Of a stretch of DNA of 64,000 nucleotides, positions 54,267-64,000 are shown piece by piece. Under the pieces are notes generated by a model. That model ran no database searches, had not been told where the DNA came from, and saw only the letters and a program-made list of their open reading frames with translations. The stretch lies in assembly GCF_000160555.1 (NCBI RefSeq), contig NZ_GG749280.1:113890-177889 (forward strand), read 5' to 3'. Both the position numbers and the translations under genes were made by a program. Origin of the DNA: Centipeda noxia ATCC 43541. Lineage in GTDB: Bacteria > Bacillota > Negativicutes > Selenomonadales > Selenomonadaceae. Each line of letters opens with the position of its first letter. Position 1 is the first letter of the stretch.

Positions 54267-55052
54267 TCAAGAGGTAAAGTTCGGATCAAACGCCTGGATA
54301 TCCGCCAACGTATCAAATTCATAAATGACATTGTCCGCATAACACCTTCGGTAAAGTGCAAGATCATCGATATGCCGCATATAGAATTGTTCCCAGAGGA
54401 GTCCGCGAACGGCTTCGTCTGTCTCATACGCACTCTTTAGCAGCGCGCGGAATCGCTCGCTGAACCCCCTTGAAAAATACACCTGGCCCATCATATACCA
54501 ACCGCGCTGCCCGCCGATCTGCACATCGGTAATGCGGTTGTCCGCATCGACAGACAGATAGTATTCTCCCGTAGGCTCCTCACCATAAATCGATGCATAG
54601 TAGGAGCGATAGACATACGGCTCAAAAACATTTTCCGTGAAATAATGATCTGCCGAACAGATATAGGTGTTGTCGAGCACATCCAGGACACGATAGAGAG
54701 ACGACGTGTTGTTGTAACGAAAATAATCCGGATTCTCAATGATATGGATATGCGGGTCTGAGGCAAGATAGGAAAATTGTTCTTTTCGATATCCTACGAC
54801 GAGGAAAATATCTCCGATCCCCGCTGCAATCAGCTGCCGTATCTGACGTTCAACAAGCACTTCGCCGCAAATCCGCAGCAGCCCCTTCGGCATCTTATCC
54901 GTAATCGGCGCAAGACGGCTGCCATATCCGGCGGCCATCAGTACGGCATTTTTCACACGATAGCTTTCGAGCGCCGCCGCAGCGCGTTTCTGCCGGCACG
55001 TGCCGTCTGTTTTACACCGTTCGGAAAGCTTTAGAAACTCCTCATATGTCAT
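54267..55052 (-). CDS. licC: choline-phosphate cytidylyltransferase (LicC-like)
   Basis: 261 residues from the ATG at 55052. A short helical N-terminus (1-45) precedes a sugar-nucleotide-transferase-like domain: NAVLMAAGYGSRLAPITDKMPK is the nucleotide-binding signature with the catalytic Lys, followed by VVGYRKEQF and CSADHYFTE metal-site blocks. With LicA and LicB it should turn choline into CDP-choline. The start overlaps licB by 4 bases. Last gene of the operon. Confidence 0.85.
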   Translation of the reverse strand: MTYEEFLKLSERCKTDGTCRQKRAAAALESYRVKNAVLMAAGYGSRLAPITDKMPKGLLRICGEVLVERQIRQLIAAGIGDIFLVVGYRKEQFSYLASDPHIHIIENPDYFRYNNTSSLYRVLDVLDNTYICSADHYFTENVFEPYVYRSYYASIYGEEPTGEYYLSVDADNRITDVQIGGQRGWYMMGQVYFSRGFSERFRALLKSAYETDEAVRGLLWEQFYMRHIDDLALYRRCYADNVIYEFDTLADIQAFDPNFTS

Positions 55053-55990
55053 AGTATATTCTCGGCCTTCTGCGGATAAAGAGAAACCAACACAACTCCA
55101 GCAAAGACAAGTCCACAGCCTAAAATCATCTGTCCCGACACCATTGCTCCCCCAATTCCCCACTGCAGAAGCACGCCCCAAATGATATAACTTGCGTTCA
55201 GCGCCATTCCGCGTGCGCATCCAATGGCTCTATTAACCGCGTACCAGAGAAAATAGGATGCACCTGCGATGATGCCCGCGGCGACAAGCGATCCAAGTAC
55301 GTCGGGGTGGGATGAAATCTCCTCCCATATCAATCTCCCCGGTAAAATGATCAGTGACATGAACAGTAAAGCGCTGCCGGAAATACACTCACGCAGCGTA
55401 ATCGCAAGGTCAGGCTCAATGTCCTCCATGCCGCGCACGGCAAGCACGATTTCACTCCCCCAGCAAAATGCTGCAGCAAGCCCGCAGACAAGACCCGGAA
55501 GAAGCAGTGGAGCAGCAAAATCTGACGGCGTCCCCGCCGTGAGGACTACCCCCGTTACCGCAAGCGCAATGCCAAGCCCCATACGCATTGTTATTGCTTG
55601 ATGCAGGATCACTCTGGCAAGAATACAGCCGACAACGGGGTAAAGCGCCGAGAGTGCCAATGCATAGGTCGGTCCTGCCCAGAGAATGCCGAGACAATAG
55701 GAAAGTTGTCCGAGCGGTCCGCCAAGAAGCGCCGCAGCACATAGAAAAGCCCCAGAACGATGAAAGATCGTGCGGACGGCATGCAGAGCGCCGCGGATCC
55801 CGTTCACGAGGAGCAAAGACACAGCTGCGCTCATATCATTGACAGCGGTACAGACGAGCGGAACGATAATCCCCGCCGCTAAATTTCCTTCGAGAAGAGG
55901 TCGTGCGCCAATATCGTACAAATAGTTATTACATCCCCAAAGGAATCCGCTTAGGAGGCCGAGCATCAGCCACAGAGGATACCGTCTCAT
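55049..55990 (-). CDS. licB: choline permease (LicB-like, DMT superfamily)
   Basis: 313 residues with about ten membrane segments in two EamA-like halves. The N-terminus LMLGLLSGFLWGCNNYLYDIG and the LGGPLGQLSYCLGI block are typical of LicB proteins that import choline. Overlaps both licA and licC by 4 bases, so the three are translated as a unit. Confidence 0.85.
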   Translation of the reverse strand: MRRYPLWLMLGLLSGFLWGCNNYLYDIGARPLLEGNLAAGIIVPLVCTAVNDMSAAVSLLLVNGIRGALHAVRTIFHRSGAFLCAAALLGGPLGQLSYCLGILWAGPTYALALSALYPVVGCILARVILHQAITMRMGLGIALAVTGVVLTAGTPSDFAAPLLLPGLVCGLAAAFCWGSEIVLAVRGMEDIEPDLAITLRECISGSALLFMSLIILPGRLIWEEISSHPDVLGSLVAAGIIAGASYFLWYAVNRAIGCARGMALNASYIIWGVLLQWGIGGAMVSGQMILGCGLVFAGVVLVSLYPQKAENIL

Positions 55991-56886
55991 AATGCATTCT
56001 CCAGCAGAGCCCGTGCCTTTGCAGGATAGTCTCTTGCAAAGCGGAACTGGTTCTCTGCATACGCGCCGAACGTTACGCCGAACGAACTCTTATAGGCACA
56101 CCAACAGCTCCAAAGGAGTCCCCCGACCGCCATATATGCATATACTCTCGCTCTGATCCGATCATCGAAGCCCTCAGGAAAGTATCCCGCAAGCAGCTGC
56201 TTTGTCTCTTCCTCCGTATAATTTGCATAAATCGCAAACATCGCAATATCAATGAGGGGGTCAGAGAGTCCCGCATACTCCCAATCGATGAGATAGGGGT
56301 GCTCCCGTCCTTCAACAAACAGGAAGTTGTCGAAAATCGAATCAATATGACAAAGCGTCACACGATCTGTTAAAAAAGGAGCAAGAAAAGGCCGCAGGAA
56401 AAAGACCTCCGCCCGCACATTTCGATATTCGATGCAGTGGAGTCTCTCCAACGGCATCAGCTCTTCATAGAATTCCAGTGTTTCAAACGGGTCAAAAACC
56501 TTTGCACCGGTCAATCTGCGCTCATGAAAGGCCCGCAGTGCCCTCATACATCGTTTTACTTCATCCGTATTATGAGGATCGCAGACACGGGCACCCTCAT
56601 AGTAACATGAGATTTTATACCCGGGATCAATGCTGAGTGCAATGACATGTTCCGTAATATCAGCGGTACCGAGGAGTTCATAGACGACCTTCTCGTTTTC
56701 ACGGTCGATGAGGAGCTCTGTCCCGTGTCCGTTGTAGCGAAAGATATATTTCTGTCCATTCACAACGAAGAGGAAAGAGTCATTGGTCATTCCTTCCTTG
56801 AGCGGCAACAGAGTACCGTCAGCCGCCTCTCTGCCGAAGTGCAGCTGGATCGTACGCCGAATAAAGCGCTCCTCTTCCATCTGCAT
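55987..56886 (-). CDS. licA: choline kinase (LicA-like)
   Basis: 299 residues from the ATG at 56886; an ATG 6 bases further in is possible. Aminoglycoside-phosphotransferase/choline-kinase fold: GMTNDSFLF and YIFRYNGHGTE for the ATP site, catalytic loop LCHIDSIFDNFLF and the metal-binding LIDWEYAGLSDPLIDIA. Phosphorylates choline taken up by LicB. No strong ribosome-binding site is visible. Confidence 0.88.
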   Translation of the reverse strand: MQMEEERFIRRTIQLHFGREAADGTLLPLKEGMTNDSFLFVVNGQKYIFRYNGHGTELLIDRENEKVVYELLGTADITEHVIALSIDPGYKISCYYEGARVCDPHNTDEVKRCMRALRAFHERRLTGAKVFDPFETLEFYEELMPLERLHCIEYRNVRAEVFFLRPFLAPFLTDRVTLCHIDSIFDNFLFVEGREHPYLIDWEYAGLSDPLIDIAMFAIYANYTEEETKQLLAGYFPEGFDDRIRARVYAYMAVGGLLWSCWCAYKSSFGVTFGAYAENQFRFARDYPAKARALLENAL

Positions 56887-56940
56887 TGATCTCGATTGCG
56901 TTTCCCGATTCGATATCACACACAAGGCCCCATTCCGCGT

Positions 56941-58548
56941 TTATATAATGCCGAGTTCCAAACGATGCCGGCGAACAACATTCTGTATATCGTGATACAG
57001 GGTTCCCGGCCACAGATCGATTTCGACGGGGACCGGAAGCGTCAGCGGATCTGCAAAGAGAAGCATCGCAAGGACGAGGCGGGAACGACGCTCCCGCACC
57101 TCCGCAGATTCATACATCTCCTGCAGCTTTCCAAGGATCTGCTCTTCTCCCCACACGAGGTTTTCATTGTGCAGGCGCAGCGGCAGGAGCGCCAAATAGA
57201 GCGTATACCATTCCTGTGCGCAAAAATCTTGAAGCAGTTCCTCGTTTCCGCCGCCGATTACCGAAACGAGCGCCTTCTTTTGGTCAAAAATCCATTTTTC
57301 AACGTCGGGCAGATATACATGCTCCGAGCACAGGCTGTCCGCGTGGTCTTTTTTAAGGCGGGCGACAATACGCTCTGCCGCTCCGCCGTGTTTTTCTCGA
57401 AATTCGGCAACAATCGTCCTGCGCCGATCCGCGGCAGGATCTTCGCAGCGGATCAGCTGCTCCAAATAATATTCTGCCTGCATCCAATCCTCCGCAACAT
57501 AGCTTCCTTCCAGCATTTTATTATAGTCGTCGGTCAGTTCGACGCCGTTCGGGCAATAGACCAGCGGACGGTCCAAAAGGAAAAAGGGCATATTGAGAGA
57601 TGAAAAATCCGTAAGCAGGATGTCTGCGCGGCTGAGTGCCTCAAACGGCGTATATGCTCCGTCGTCAAGTTCAATCCCATATGCATCCAGCATCGCTTTA
57701 TAAGATGCGACCTCGTTCTCCGTCATATCCCCCCGCTGGATAAAGTTATCAAACATAAACGGATGCGGACGAACTGCAAATTTTAATTCGCTGCTCCCAT
57801 ATTTTGCCGCAAAGTCAACAAAATGATCTTTATAATCAAGGAAATGGCTTCCTCCCACCATAGGATCTGTTGTCCAACGCGGCATCCAAAGGATTCTGCG
57901 TGTGCCGTGCGGCTCACCGTGATATTCCAAGTAGGGCACAAAGCTCGGATAGCCGAGATCCTCGAAATGCTGCAGTCCGGCAGAAACCGTATGCGGATAG
58001 GCAGATTCCATCGCAGCCTTCTCTTCCGGCGAGTCACAAAAATGAAACGTCATATGCGAGAAGAACTCCTGCATCATCGTCTCCCAATGAATAAAGAACT
58101 TCGTTCCCTGCGTGCCGTACGCGATATAGCAGAGTTTTGCAATTTTAACGAGATCTGTCGTATGGGTGCCGCCCATCTGGCGCAGATCTTCATAGGGCAG
58201 CGCCAAGAATATATAATCCGGCTGAAAGACCCGCAGATCGAGAACATTGGTAAAATCATAAACATCCTGATAGCGATCGTGGAAAAAATGCCAATAGCGC
58301 TCTTCATATTCTCCCACGCGCTTCCCTGCCGTATGGTCTGTCGCAGTATATGTCGGAAGCAGCACGATGATCGGCTCCACGTCATCGTCCGCTGCGAATA
58401 CATCATATACGGGAGACTGTTTATCCCAAATAAAGTCGTTCTGCACAAGAAAGACAACCCGCATCCTGCGCTCCGGATGCGGACGGTTGTGAAGTTCCTG
58501 AAGGTAATATGCCGCTGTGTTCATGTTGGAAAATGATCGTCCCTGCAT
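56941..58548 (-). CDS. CDP-glycerol glycerophosphotransferase-family protein
   Basis: 535 residues, no signal peptide. The central and C-terminal part (about 120-400) matches the family of teichoic-acid CDP-glycerol transferases, with the diagnostic block SRADILLTDFSSLNMPFFLLDRPLVY near 305-330 and a FAVRPHP block before it. The N-terminal 120 residues are a Rossmann-like region. In this operon it is a candidate to transfer a phospho-alcohol unit (glycerol phosphate or phosphocholine) to a surface glycan; the donor is not determined. GGGAA precedes the ATG. Confidence 0.75.
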   Translation of the reverse strand: MQGRSFSNMNTAAYYLQELHNRPHPERRMRVVFLVQNDFIWDKQSPVYDVFAADDDVEPIIVLLPTYTATDHTAGKRVGEYEERYWHFFHDRYQDVYDFTNVLDLRVFQPDYIFLALPYEDLRQMGGTHTTDLVKIAKLCYIAYGTQGTKFFIHWETMMQEFFSHMTFHFCDSPEEKAAMESAYPHTVSAGLQHFEDLGYPSFVPYLEYHGEPHGTRRILWMPRWTTDPMVGGSHFLDYKDHFVDFAAKYGSSELKFAVRPHPFMFDNFIQRGDMTENEVASYKAMLDAYGIELDDGAYTPFEALSRADILLTDFSSLNMPFFLLDRPLVYCPNGVELTDDYNKMLEGSYVAEDWMQAEYYLEQLIRCEDPAADRRRTIVAEFREKHGGAAERIVARLKKDHADSLCSEHVYLPDVEKWIFDQKKALVSVIGGGNEELLQDFCAQEWYTLYLALLPLRLHNENLVWGEEQILGKLQEMYESAEVRERRSRLVLAMLLFADPLTLPVPVEIDLWPGTLYHDIQNVVRRHRLELGII

Positions 58549-58557
58549 AATTCCCGC

Positions 58558-59160
58558 CTATCTTAGCAAAAGTGTTGTCTTACTTATTTCGGATAAACTC
58601 CGAACCGTATGCTCCCGCACCGAAAGCCACGCCTCTTTGGTGCGAACATACTCCATCTGCTGCATGCCGTTCACCACGAGCTCGCGGGGGAACCGTGCTG
58701 CTCCCATATTCCGATGAAACCCGTATTTTTCATGATAGCGCACGGATGCAATATTCTCATGCACGATATGTGCATAACAGGTATCTGCGCCAAATGCGCC
58801 GTACATATAGTCCGCAAAGAGCAGCGTTGCTTCTGCAAAGAGCGGACTCCCCCGATAACGTCGGTCGCCGACAAGCAGGCGCCCCGTGATGCACAGTCTC
58901 TCCGCAGGAATATGATCTGTCCAGCCCATCGTGGCAAACGGCGTGTCATTCTGTTTATCCACAACGACCAGAAGTCCCTGCGTCGGATCGGAGCAATACC
59001 GTCGATACCACGCCCTCTGTTTTTCCATATCGAGAAGAAAGGGCTGGTTCAGATAGCGATTGTTCAGAGGATCATTGCGCCATGCAATAATGTACGGGAA
59101 ATATTTTTCCGCAGCCTCTTCCAAATATACCGTGTTTCCTTCCAGACGAAGTTTCCGCAT
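58558..59160 (-). CDS. GNAT-family N-acetyltransferase, probably sugar-modifying
   Basis: 200 residues. GNAT fold: an N-terminal beta-alpha unit with AWRNDPLNNRYLNQPF, a central acetyl-CoA-binding strand and loop (GRLLVGDRRYRGSPLFAEATLL), then HIVHENIASVRYHEKYGFHR, the usual end of motif A/B. This resembles enzymes that acetylate amino groups of nucleotide sugars. It lies 18 bases after the aminotransferase gene, so it is a good candidate to acetylate that enzyme's product. Confidence 0.8.
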   Translation of the reverse strand: MRKLRLEGNTVYLEEAAEKYFPYIIAWRNDPLNNRYLNQPFLLDMEKQRAWYRRYCSDPTQGLLVVVDKQNDTPFATMGWTDHIPAERLCITGRLLVGDRRYRGSPLFAEATLLFADYMYGAFGADTCYAHIVHENIASVRYHEKYGFHRNMGAARFPRELVVNGMQQMEYVRTKEAWLSVREHTVRSLSEISKTTLLLR

Positions 59161-59178: not shown

Positions 59179-60276
59179 TTACGGGCGATATGCATTGACG
59201 GTCTCGATCACATAGGCGATCTCATCCGCCCACATTCCGTTGAACATCGGCAGGCTCAGCACCTCATCGGCATAGCGTTCCGTCAACGGGAAGCTGCCGC
59301 GCCCATACCCGAGCCCCGCATAACATTCTGCACGGTGCGGCGGGATCGGATAGTGAATCACGGTCTCTATGCCGCGTTCAGAGAGATATTTTTTGAATCC
59401 GTCCCGCTGCGCTGTCCGAACGACGAACTGGTGGTAGACATGCTCGGCGCCTTCCCGCAGCTGAGGCAGAAGGATGTGTTCATTTTGTATGCCAGACAGA
59501 TACTGACCGGCAATCTCCTTTCGCTCGGCGGTCAGCTCCGGCAGATATTTCAGCTTCACGCGCAAAAGAGCCGCCTGAACTTCATCCAGACGGGAGTTCA
59601 CGCCGCACATTTCATTATGATACTTTTCCTTACTGCCGTAGTTTCTGAGCATGCGGATCCTCTCTGCGAGCACCGCATCATCCGTCACAACGGCACCCGC
59701 GTCGCCGAATGCGCCGAGGTTCTTCGTCGGGTAAAAGCTAAAGCATCCAATATTGCCGAATCGGCCCGTCATCGTTGCGCCGAAATGTGCGCCGTGCGAC
59801 TGGGCGCAGTCCTCAATGACGGCGAGGTGATATTTTTCTGCGGCACGCATAATATGCGGCATATCGGCTGCCTGCCCGTAGAGATGAACGGGCATGATCG
59901 CGCGCGTGCGCGATGTTATCGCGGCTTCCAGCTGCGCGGCATCAAGATTGTAGTACGCGTCCGGCTCGGCAAAGACGGGAGATGCGCCGTTCTCCGTAAC
60001 GGCAAGCGCTGTCGCAATATAGGTATTCGCCGGAACGACAACCTCATCCCCCGCGCCGATGCCGAGCGCTGCAGCGGAGAGCGTCAGGGCATCGAGCCCG
60101 GAATTCAGCCCGACTGCATATTTTGCTCCTGTATAGGCGGCAAACTCCCGTTCAAACGCCTCCAGCTCTGGCCCCAGAATATACCATCCGGAGCGGAGCG
60201 CACGCAGCGCAGCCTCTTCATATTCTGCTGCGTGAATGTCATACTGTCGTCCAAGAACAGCAAGATCAATGTTCAT
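59179..60276 (-). CDS. DegT/DnrJ/EryC1 sugar aminotransferase
   Basis: 365 residues from the ATG at 60276, 7 bases from AAAGGA. PLP-dependent family: [20 protein letters not shown], a conserved Asp-Cys-Ala-Gln-Ser-His-Gly block (IEDCAQSHG) and the PLP Lys in [14 protein letters not shown]. With the ketoisomerase encoded two genes earlier it should aminate a dTDP-3-keto-6-deoxyhexose at C3, as in Fuc3NAc/Qui3NAc synthesis. All catalytic residues look intact. Confidence 0.92.
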
Positions 60277-60341
60277 CATTTTTCCTTTGTTGTCAGAGGA
60301 ATACATCGGCAAAGCGCTTGTGCTGCCGCAGCCAGACGATC

Positions 60342-61334
60342 TCATCGTCCATTGGCGTACAGCAGGCCGGAACGAAGCCAGCGCTGTAAATACGCTTGGT
60401 TGATCCGCTTTAAAGAGGCGGCATTTTCTCTTTGCATGCGGGGGACAGCCTCCTTTATGTATTCGTCGATATACAGTTCATAGAGCTCCCCCGCATGGTG
60501 CTCCGGGTCAATCTTCCAACTGCACAGATCACGCAGTTCGGGATGATCCTCCGCGATCATCGTATAGTACATATTTTGATCGGCACGGATTGCCTGCTGC
60601 CACTCAGGCTGCCATGAAACGCCGGAGCCCTTTTCATACCAGATAAAATGATCGTCGAAGAATCCCAGTTCAATTCCGTCTGCAATCATGATGTTATATA
60701 CGCAGTCCTCGCCGTATATAATCTTTCCAAGAATTTTCTCCGTATAGGAGATGAGCAGTTCTGCCTCCGTAAAGAACGCGCCGCCGACAGGAAAGTCCGG
60801 TACAATGAGATATTCCTTCTTAATTTCAGAAAAGGCCTTTCTGCGATAGGACTCCATATTGGACGGCTGGAGCTGACCGAGCACCTCATAGTTTTGCGGT
60901 CCTGCTTCTTGATAGTAATACGTACACCCAAAAGCGACCCGATATTGACTGTTCTCCACGAATCGAAGCATACGCGCCAAAGTAGTTTCATCGTACAGGA
61001 AATCGCCCGGAGAAATCGCTTTGATGTAGCGGCCCCGCATCACGGGAAACGCGCTCGCCGTATTTTTCACTGTCCCCTTGTTGTAGGGATTTGCCGCAAT
61101 TGTATAGGCATGGAAATTTCGCTGCGCAAAATACGCCTCAATCATTTTTCTGTCAAAATCCGGTGTGCCGTCATCTGCAATGATGATTTCAAAGGAACAG
61201 CCCTGCTGGCAGACAATGGATTCAAGCGTGGCAAACAGCTTCAGCAGATTCGGCCGATAGGTAAGCACACACACCGAAACGTCAATGTCCGGATGGTATG
61301 CGATTCTCTCCCCTCTGTGCATATTCTCCCCCAT
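60342..61334 (-). CDS. family 2 glycosyltransferase
   Basis: 330 residues, soluble. GT-A fold: [23 protein letters not shown], nucleotide-binding [20 protein letters not shown], and the SPGDFLYDE loop with the likely metal-binding Asp. A clear paralogue of the C-terminal half of the CatB-glycosyltransferase fusion encoded upstream. Transfers a sugar to a surface glycan; donor unknown. Start at 61334 is uncertain, and the ATG at 61322 is an alternative. Confidence 0.88.
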
Positions 61335-61340
61335 TTATGA

Positions 61341-61766
61341 TCAATTCTTAGGAGCCGCAGATGTGCGCCCTTCATTTACCATGCGCAGGAACTCATCGTA
61401 ATCCCGTATGTAGTCGGATTCGTCATAGACCTCGGACGCCAGCACCATGAGCACGGCATCCGGTGAGAAATCATACATCTCACGCCACATGGCGTGCGAA
61501 ATATAAAGCCCCTCATATGGTTTTTCAAGAAGAACAACCTTCTTCTCACTGCCGTTGTCGAGGCGAATCTTGCATTTCCCATGAATACAGATCAGGATCT
61601 GCTCCAGCCGTTTATGCGCATGATGCCCCCGCACAACGCCCTCCACGGTGTCATACATATAGTAAACACGCTTGATGCGAAAGGGAATGTCGTTAAATTC
61701 TTCCAGAGCCACGAGCATCCCGCGCGCATCGCCATGCGGCTGGAACATATATTTTACAATTTGCAT
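61341..61766 (-). CDS. sugar 3,4-ketoisomerase (FdtA/QdtA, WxcM-like)
   Basis: 141 residues, single cupin domain. RGMLVALEEFNDIPFRIKRVYY followed by RGHHAHKRLEQILICIHGKC is the family signature, with the two catalytic His in GHHAHK. Such enzymes convert dTDP-4-keto-6-deoxyglucose to the 3-keto form, with galacto or gluco configuration depending on subgroup, which sequence alone does not settle. Upstream RmlA/RmlB are not in the window. Ribosome-binding site GGGGG. Confidence 0.9.
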   Translation of the reverse strand: MQIVKYMFQPHGDARGMLVALEEFNDIPFRIKRVYYMYDTVEGVVRGHHAHKRLEQILICIHGKCKIRLDNGSEKKVVLLEKPYEGLYISHAMWREMYDFSPDAVLMVLASEVYDESDYIRDYDEFLRMVNEGRTSAAPKN

Positions 61767-61791: not shown

Positions 61792-63729
61792 TTAAGTTAC
61801 GACTTCCGCATGAACCAGCTTGCTCAGCTCTGCCGGATCGACGTTCTGCAGGTAAGAACCTGCGGCTAACATTCTCTCTGCTTCCGCATAGTATGCTGCT
61901 CGCTTTCTCCTGTATGCCGCATCATCGTGCTGTTTTCCGCCGTCCGATCCAAAAATGATGTCCAAGATCTCGCTGTGTCGTTCCGCAATGATCGCAAGCG
62001 TACGTTTGCTGTCATACAGAAGGCGTTCTCTCCACTCCTGCGACAAATCGCCGGATATGCCGGTGTTATACTCGTACCATACGAAATTCTCATCCCAGAA
62101 CCCGAGCCGAATATCATCGGCAATCATAATCGGATAGACAGCATCCTCCGTGTAAATAATTTGGCCGAGTATATCCCTTGTATAGGCGGCGAGCAAGCTG
62201 CGCTCTCCCATAAATGCAGCCCCGACCACATAGTCCTGATAGACCAGATACGCCTCTTTGACTGCAGAGAAGTCCCGTTCTCTGTACGGCCGCAGCTGAA
62301 AGGGATTCATGCGGTTGATCAGATGATATTTATCACCCATTTTGGAGTAATAACATGCACGCCCGAAGGCTATTTTATAGCTGTTCTCCTCCATAAAGCG
62401 CAGCATATCCGCTAAAACATGGTCATTGTAGAGATAATCTCCCGGAGAGATCAGCTTCACGTAATGCCCCCGTGCTGCAGTGAGGACGTTCATCACATTA
62501 TGCACCGTTCCCTTATTCTCGGGACTTCGTACGATCACATAATCCCTGCATCCATGCTGCAGCAGCCACAGTTCGAGCTCCCGCTCTCGAAAATCCTTGG
62601 AACCGTCATCTCCGATCACAATCTCATAACTGCATCCTTGCTGCCGAATCACGGAGGTCAGCGTCATCAGCAGTTTTTCATAGTCCGGCTGATAGGTCAA
62701 AATTCCGATACTGATATTGTATTCTTTCCAAACATGAAAAATCCTGCTCTGTTCGTCTCCGCCATAGACAATCTCCGCCCCTGCAGCAGCGGCATAATCC
62801 GCACAGCGGGATGAAACATCCTCTTTGGTCGTAATCAGAACATCTGCCTGCTGCAGTGCTCGAACGGAAAAGTCCCTTCCGCTCTCATGCGTCAGTACAA
62901 GCGGCGCCTTCTCCCCGAGCGCTGAAAGCAGTTCATTGAGTTCACCAAGGGCTGTAGGCGGAGCCTTCCGCCCGAGTTCCAAACACAGAGCAGCTGGATC
63001 CTCTGCCGTATATGATCGAAGATAGTCCCGGAACACCTTGCGCCAAATCGCTTCCGTTGATGAGAAGTCCGGCACAAAATAGTAGATCCGACAGCCCTGC
63101 TCTTTGAGCATCCTAAGCGGAAGCGCAGTTTCATTCGCTGCAGCCGGCGTATCATTTTGCGCCGCAGAAAATTTATGGATAAACTTTGCCATATCTCCGC
63201 AGAGCATATGAATATGCGCCCGAATCTTTGCCTCGGACCAATTCCACCACTTGATCCGCTCGAGCGCAGCAGCGATCTGTTCATCGAAGCGATGCCGGAG
63301 GACGTGCGCCGGATTGCCTGCCATAACGGCATAAGGCGGCACATCTTCCGTCACGACTGCTCCCGCCTCTACCACAGCCCCATTGCCAATACGGGCACCG
63401 CCCAGAATCGTCGCTTTGCCGCCGATCCGTACGTCATTCCCAATGATAATCTGTCTGCCTGAATGACGGTCTGTCCATTTGTCTGCGCTATGCGGCACGA
63501 TGGAAGCATGCGCCGTTTTGCATTCATTTTCGTTCTGAAAGATAAACGCGACATCGTCAGAGACGGCAGAATAGCGCCCGATCAGTACGTGGACATCGTC
63601 GTCATCCGCAGCGAAGTTCCCGCCGAGTACATAGGAGCCCGCCCCTGCCGTCAATACGGTTTTCCCGTTTTCACGGATTACTTTGCGGATATGCGCGTCT
63701 TTATTTTCCAATACCACATGAAAGTTCAA
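61792..63729 (-). CDS. CatB-like acetyltransferase fused to a family 2 glycosyltransferase
   Basis: 645 residues from the TTG at 63729, 7 bases from AAGGGG; an in-frame TTG at 63750 lacks such a site. Residues about 25-165 are a left-handed beta-helix acetyltransferase of the CatB/xenobiotic type ([40 protein letters not shown]). A linker domain (about 195-330) looks Rossmann-like. Residues about 336-590 are a GT2 domain ([29 protein letters not shown]). It could acetylate the amino sugar and transfer it. The C-terminal tail [12 protein letters not shown] recurs in the next gene. Confidence 0.88.
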
Positions 63730-63769
63730 TGTCCATCCCCTTATGCGCAACGCGGGAAGCTCTCAAAAA

Positions 63770-64000
63770 TTATGCGAACACAACCCTTTTCTTCACCAGT
63801 TTCTCGAGTTCATGCGGGTCTACATTCTGTCTGTATCCGCCCGCTTCTTCCATCTGCGCGGCAACGACCTCTCTTGCATACTGCTGACGCACCGCGTTGA
63901 AGTCTTCTTCGCCGTGAGCGAGACGCCGCTTCTCTTTTTCCGCTCGAATTTCCGGGTGCTTATGTTCAATCAGCGCAAAACATACTGCACTGTCTTTTCC
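63770..64000 (-). CDS. C-terminal end of a paralogous glycosyltransferase (partial)
   Basis: The frame is open to the right edge; 76 residues remain, ending RVVFA. The stretch YRQNVDPHELEKLV matches the tail of the preceding fusion protein ([14 protein letters not shown]), and ALIEHKHPEIR resembles [11 protein letters not shown] in that protein and [10 protein letters not shown] in the 330-residue glycosyltransferase. It is therefore probably a third member of this GT2 group. It lies 40 bases upstream of the fusion gene. Confidence 0.7.
   Translation of the reverse strand, partial: GKDSAVCFALIEHKHPEIRAEKEKRRLAHGEEDFNAVRQQYAREVVAAQMEEAGGYRQNVDPHELEKLVKKRVVFA

Follow-up and report, generated by a model that had tools for sequence, protein, structure and literature searches.

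A licABC operon with an adjoining PF04464-like gene in a Selenomonas genome without LicD

Which enzyme would place phosphocholine on a surface glycan in a bacterium that carries the choline uptake, phosphorylation and activation genes licB, licA and licC and no LicD-type transferase? Bacteria with phosphocholine on their glycans imitate molecules of the host, and host proteins recognise this group. The question is raised by a stretch of 64,000 nucleotides from Centipeda noxia ATCC 43541 (contig NZ_GG749280.1, positions 113,890 to 177,889), hereafter the window, whose genome (G000; Selenomonas, 2.05 Mb, 19 contigs, 99.98% complete) holds a licABC operon with an adjoining PF04464-like gene and is free of LicD. 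Based on conserved adjacency and co-occurrence within the genus, which point to CDP-choline as the donor, we tentatively propose, at slightly less than an even chance, that the PF04464-like protein of 535 amino acids (aa) transfers phosphocholine from CDP-choline onto a glycan.

The lic operon and the search for LicD

The absence of a LicD-type transferase from the window, reported in the preliminary description, was borne out by a profile built from sequences of this bacterial family. That description had also called for a search for LicD elsewhere in the genome, where a homologue would have undone its argument, and the whole-genome search of G000 with PF04991 (E <= 0.001) returned 0 matches. 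Among 189 genomes of the family, PF04991 detects LicD in 82, which indicates that the search works in this family. Within Selenomonas, licA, called at 1e-20, was present in 7 of 14 genomes, none of which has LicD (0/7), and LicD was found in two genomes (G006 and G011), neither with licA. This mutual exclusion is by itself not significant (p 0.46), because so few Selenomonas genomes carry LicD.

The reading of licA-licB-licC as one overlapping unit was confirmed: all three genes lie on the minus strand, licC/licB and licB/licA overlap by 4 base pairs (bp) each, and the closest solved relatives of the three proteins are pneumococcal LicA, LicB and LicC. The gene for the 535-aa protein stops 15 bp upstream of licA, and the intergenic gaps among the nine genes complete in the window range from -4 to 25 bp. 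The genes are given below in operon order.

63770-64000, minus strand: second fusion of a hexapeptide acyltransferase and a family 2 glycosyltransferase (GT2), truncated by the window edge, 649 aa in L002:13660-15609 (Pfam; 58% identity to the first fusion)
61792-63750, minus strand: hexapeptide acyltransferase-GT2 fusion (PF00535, 52.4 bits; hexapeptide repeats)
61341-61766, minus strand: FdtA-like sugar ketoisomerase (PF05523, 173.6 bits)
60342-61334, minus strand: family 2 glycosyltransferase (PF00535, 45.8 bits)
59179-60345, minus strand: DegT-type sugar aminotransferase (PF01041, 373 bits)
58558-59160, minus strand: GNAT acetyltransferase, probably for amino sugar acetylation (PF13302, 40.4 bits)
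56941-58548, minus strand: PF04464-like protein of putative GT-B type, 535 aa, candidate phosphocholine transferase instead of LicD (PF04464, 29.9 bits)
55987-56925, minus strand: licA, choline kinase (best solved relative 4r77, E 2e-34; PF01633, 52.7 bits)
55049-55990, minus strand: licB, EamA/DMT-type choline transporter (sole solved relative found 7b0k/7paf LicB, E 8.9e-16)
54267-55052, minus strand: licC, probable CTP:phosphocholine cytidylyltransferase of 261 aa (closest solved relative 1jyk, E 3e-39; PF12804, 43.8 bits)

All three lic genes are intact in G000. For licC the start at 55052 was preferred over the long open reading frame (ORF) start at 55220; licA starts with TTG at 56925, and an alternative ATG is possible at 56886. 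The two fusions at 61792-64000 are adjacent paralogues.

The nine genes and the tenth cut by the window edge would make up a single operon whose product is a surface glycan bearing phosphocholine. As judged from relatives of characterised proteins, LicB would import choline, LicA would phosphorylate it and LicC would activate it to CDP-choline. The FdtA-, DegT- and GNAT-type enzymes would, going by their families, supply a nucleotide-activated 3-acetamido-3,6-dideoxyhexose, which the GT2 enzymes would link. The 535-aa protein would then move phosphocholine from the presumed donor CDP-choline to a hydroxyl of the presumed glycan acceptor with release of CMP, the step that LicD takes elsewhere.

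The PF04464-like protein and its genomic company

The gene upstream of licA had been described as encoding a CDP-glycerol-transferase-family protein, and the PF04464 score of 29.9 bits against a curated cut-off of 22.1 supports that assignment; the match spans profile positions 187-364 of 367, the C-terminal half. It is the one PF04464 protein that G000 encodes, and 9/9 of its aligned relatives match PF04464 at E <= 0.1. A scan of genome contigs found one relative and a scan of viral contigs none; the nearest named relative is in Selenomonas sp. FOBRC6 (78% identity). No related solved structure was found with a profile of nine relatives, and an AlphaFold model computed from two sequences reached a pLDDT of 35. 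His262, in an RPHP motif, is histidine in 29/29 aligned rows and, on our reading of the motif, may be the equivalent of the second TagF histidine, H584; it would hold the pyrophosphate as in TagF. Residues 417-525 of the C-terminal region match the N-terminal region of relatives from the genus g12 (L122-L133), so that the order of the parts is swapped.

Close homologues (51-78% identity) were found in G004, G007 and G008, with two each, and in G013, all of them licA-positive. With G000 included, they occur in 5/7 licA-positive versus 0/7 licA-negative Selenomonas genomes (Fisher two-sided p 0.02, kinship not corrected), and all eight form one clade (support 100/100). One copy lies directly 5′ of licA in 5/5 of these genomes; of the second copies, those of G004 and G008 are surrounded by FdtA, DegT and GNAT genes, and that of G007 follows licC. 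Given that G000 has this sole PF04464 gene and that a copy stands 5′ of licA in five Selenomonas genomes, the adjacency appears to be more than chance. In G000, G004 and G007, licCBA is located between a prismane-type gene and a variable cluster delimited by genes for an ECF S-component and a DsbD-like protein, and in G010 (L057:6711-9945) licA adjoins the ECF gene with no glycan cluster between.

Across the class, the neighbourhoods of all 37 LicA-positive genomes among 300 were read in stretches of 4-20 kb, some ending at contig ends, using profiles for LicA, LicB, LicC, LicD, PF04464-like and sulfatase/phosphodiesterase-family (hereafter sulfatase-family) proteins that were derived for the most part from sequences of this bacterial family itself. 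The 28 genomes with LicC in the stretch were counted and nine were set aside, either for lacking LicC (G278, G281, G282, G284, G288, G313, G317) or for weak LicC matches (G182, 72 bits; G248, 65 bits); G328 was included on the strength of a 58-bit LicC fragment next to LicD, and G041 on that of its tblastn match. LicD was found in the stretch in 10/28 (G162, where it is split by a stop, G168, G185, G192, G197, G301, G323, G328, G329, G340). A PF04464-like gene was located 5′ of licA, with no intact LicD there, in 9/28 (G000, G004, G007, G008, G009, G013, G041, G189, G193). A sulfatase-family protein, with neither LicD nor a PF04464-like gene beside licA, was present in 6/28 (G054, G055, G167, G194, G199, G200), of which G055, G194 and G200 carry LicD elsewhere and G194 has a 41-bit PF04464-like ORF about 9 kb from its lic cluster. 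None or only a trace of a candidate was seen in 3/28 (G010, G239, and G232 with a 25-bit PF04464-like match), and adding G182 and G248 brings the group lacking any candidate to 5/30. G162, G168 and G185 have a sulfatase-family protein in addition to LicD, and G168 also has a 46-bit PF04464-like match. Sulfatase-family proteins thus stand beside licA or licC in nine genomes other than G000 (G054, G055, G162, G167, G168, G185, G194, G199, G200; stretches L061, L064, L065, L066, L067, L068, L070, L155, L156), and once they were found there, the initial impression that certain lic clusters were devoid of candidate transferases was revised.

In G041, which belongs to another genus, the order is PF04464-like gene, licA, licC, licB and then a licD stump that retains only about 65 residues from its start (L062:12034-12216). 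G189 and G193 have LicD elsewhere in the genome, and the PF04464-like gene of G193 is truncated by a contig end; a supposed licD remnant in G193 was rejected, its reference L098 being an antisense ORF. The PF04464-like proteins of G041, G189 and G009 fall outside the Selenomonas clade in a tree with long branches and an unsure deeper order, and such proteins therefore seem to have joined lic genes more than once. As to the lic genes themselves, licC and licA are fused in a single ORF in four genomes (L067:8799-10475, L068:560-2338, L070:2207-3994, L154:7198-9018), and licB of G013 (L027:8547-9505) and licA of G199 (L065:8819-10496) are each divided over two ORFs.

Donors and competing transferases

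The preliminary description had allowed the upstream protein either CDP-choline or CDP-glycerol for decorating the glycan. The lack of LicD in G000, together with adjacency and co-occurrence in the genus, points to CDP-choline, but several observations weigh against a role in phosphocholine transfer. The plainest evidence against a one-to-one link is G010, whose licABC is intact, with LicD and PF04464 both missing from the genome. The PF04464-like gene 5′ of licA in G009 is distant and 61% identical to one in the licA-negative G001, and numerous relatives, at 27-39% identity, come from g12, a genus in which the licA search at 1e-20 was negative. In G189 and G193 the PF04464-like gene and licA are separated by a TagD-like gene, read in two frames, which makes CDP-glycerol the simpler donor there. 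At the position of the TagF WHG-motif histidine (H444), the protein has Tyr144, and this tyrosine is common to lic-linked and lic-free rows alike (29/29, window included). Tyr144 was therefore rejected as a signature of a choline donor; since the glycerol-phosphate transferase Cps7A likewise has tyrosine at this position (PMC11666461), the change from histidine is uninformative about choline. In the LicC pocket, Asp105 and Asp192 of Spn-LicC are replaced by Ser133 and Glu221, and Tde-PntC has glutamate at both positions, a mixture that leaves room for an ethanolamine-type donor. Our confidence in phosphocholine transfer by the 535-aa protein is accordingly kept below even by a donor that we infer, by the break in the link at G010 and by a second candidate enzyme type in the genome.

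Other routes by which G000 might use or make activated donors were also searched. No TagD scored over cut-off, the best TIGR01518 match having 35.1 bits against 165.4, and matches of 32-44 bits, probably CoaD, were found in each of the 14 Selenomonas genomes. G004 likewise has no TagD over cut-off, and two additional PF04464 proteins with high scores (239 and 222 bits) are encoded elsewhere in its genome; the lack of TagD is hence a weak argument against CDP-glycerol, which slightly lowers the odds that we give to phosphocholine transfer. Phosphatidylcholine synthesis through a CDP-choline:lipid transferase was not supported: PF01066 gave exactly one match in each of 23 genomes irrespective of lic status, and thus no lic-linked lipid transferase was seen. 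G000 does have a second activation route, comprising a fusion of phosphoenolpyruvate (PEP) mutase with a PF01467 domain, together with an NTP_transf_3 protein, AepZ and two methyltransferases. PEP mutase was found in 13/15 genomes searched and in 13/14 Selenomonas; unlike licABC, the phosphonate route therefore does not track the PF04464-like clade. A role of LicC in phosphonate metabolism was rejected, because the phosphonate genes of G000 have their own NTP transferase at another site and LicC adjoins LicA and LicB.

The second candidate type is the sulfatase family, with proteins of about 700 aa. Three scanned from G000 matched PF00884 and PF01663 over cut-off, one of them with weak TPR matches under cut-off, and no hydrophobic stretch resembling a membrane helix was seen in the sequences inspected. 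Thr352, Asp314, His456, Asp509, Asp535 and His536 are kept in 70/70 sequences, and position 454 is Asp in 68. Outside the window, on contig G000:C16 (L159:529-11562; also L160-L162, L167-L175), phosphonate genes are followed by a tandem array of these genes. Beside phosphonate genes, 13 Selenomonas genomes have 3 to 7 copies in the stretches read, to which the counts apply, with three full copies and one partial match in G000 and seven in G010. A tree of 40 rows, in which 6/13 of these Selenomonas genomes are represented, groups the 28 phosphonate-linked rows, including all G000 and G010 copies used, in a single clade (100/99) and separates them from the 11 lic-linked rows by a branch supported at 96/91. 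We infer that the proteins may be transferases of the cytoplasm, with one branch serving CMP-phosphonate and the other CDP-choline.

For the missing step in G000 these proteins are the foremost alternative, though the G000 copies seen are of the phosphonate branch. A soluble member of the phosphonate-side tandem array could move phosphocholine via a threonine intermediate, leaving the PF04464-like protein another task; the presence of the family in nine lic clusters, six of which have neither LicD nor a PF04464-like gene beside licA, and the fully kept Thr352 speak for this, and the G010 copies would explain its orphan licABC. We consider it unlikely for G000, however, as the G000 and G010 copies placed in the tree, all from the stretches read, fall in the phosphonate-linked clade apart from the lic-linked rows, and as the family stands beside PEP mutase in 13/14 Selenomonas irrespective of licA whereas the PF04464-like clade follows licA. 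A broader scheme, in which the step after LicABC in Selenomonadaceae is filled by three unrelated types, namely LicD, the PF04464-like proteins and soluble sulfatase-family proteins with a threonine nucleophile, the latter two being new CDP-choline-dependent phosphocholine transferases and the sister clade of the third placing phosphonates from tandem arrays in the same genomes, seems somewhat unlikely to us.

Somewhat unlikely, too, is that the PF04464-like protein decorates the same glycan with another group, be it glycerol phosphate, ribitol phosphate, a phosphonate or a sugar, its adjacency to licA reflecting a shared surface-glycan locus. PF04464 members of known function use CDP-glycerol (PMC11666461), and the relatives in lic-free genomes, the TagD-like genes of G189 and G193, the second copies in the region in G004, G007 and G008, and the activated phosphonate that G000 also makes all fit such a role. 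This account leaves CDP-choline without a recognised user beside licABC, however, and has to face the lack of close homologues in 7/7 licA-negative Selenomonas despite PEP mutase in 13/14, as well as, with less weight, the missing TagD. That licABC is orphan or decaying in G000, with no phosphocholine put on a glycan, we hold to be very improbable: G010, with licABC alone, and the split licB of G013 and licA of G199 offer precedents, but the three genes are intact in G000 and kept in half of the Selenomonas genomes.

Comparison with known systems

In titles and abstracts, with subscription papers and preprints outside the scope, no PF04464 phosphocholine transferase and no licABC without licD was found. 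If phosphocholine transfer by the 535-aa protein holds true, a second protein family would perform this reaction, searches with LicD as marker would miss phosphocholine-decorated bacteria, oral Selenomonas included, and a small set of enzymes to test would be at hand; the route to a host-mimicking surface mark would be a new one.

With the Lic-1 pathway (licABCD), the window shares relatives of LicA, LicB and LicC and an overlapping operon inside a glycan cluster, as in Proteus mirabilis O18 (PMC8027243). It differs in lacking LicD genome-wide and having the PF04464-like gene in the operon instead; licD occurs together with licABC in P. mirabilis O18 (PMC8027243) and in Campylobacter upsaliensis (PMC539331). 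A survey covered 26 species that express phosphocholine, and every one with the carbohydrate-linked form had Lic-1 homologues (PMC10434233). Like TagF/TagB and the TagF-like capsule transferases of PF04464, the window protein scores over the family cut-off and keeps the RPHP histidine, but it matches only the C-terminal half of the profile, has tyrosine for the WHG histidine and adjoins choline rather than CDP-glycerol genes. PptA, the pilin phosphocholine transferase, is likewise a non-LicD enzyme that places phosphocholine; it belongs to the alkaline-phosphatase superfamily, has a protein target and occurs in species described there as without lic genes (PMC10434233). The reaction proposed here is also that of mf1 from Mycoplasma fermentans, which transfers phosphocholine from CDP-choline to a sugar and is, according to a 2025 paper, the sole recombinant phosphocholine transferase to have been confirmed in vitro (PMC11982090); mf1 is assigned to the LicD family (PMC11982090), whereas the window protein belongs with PF04464.

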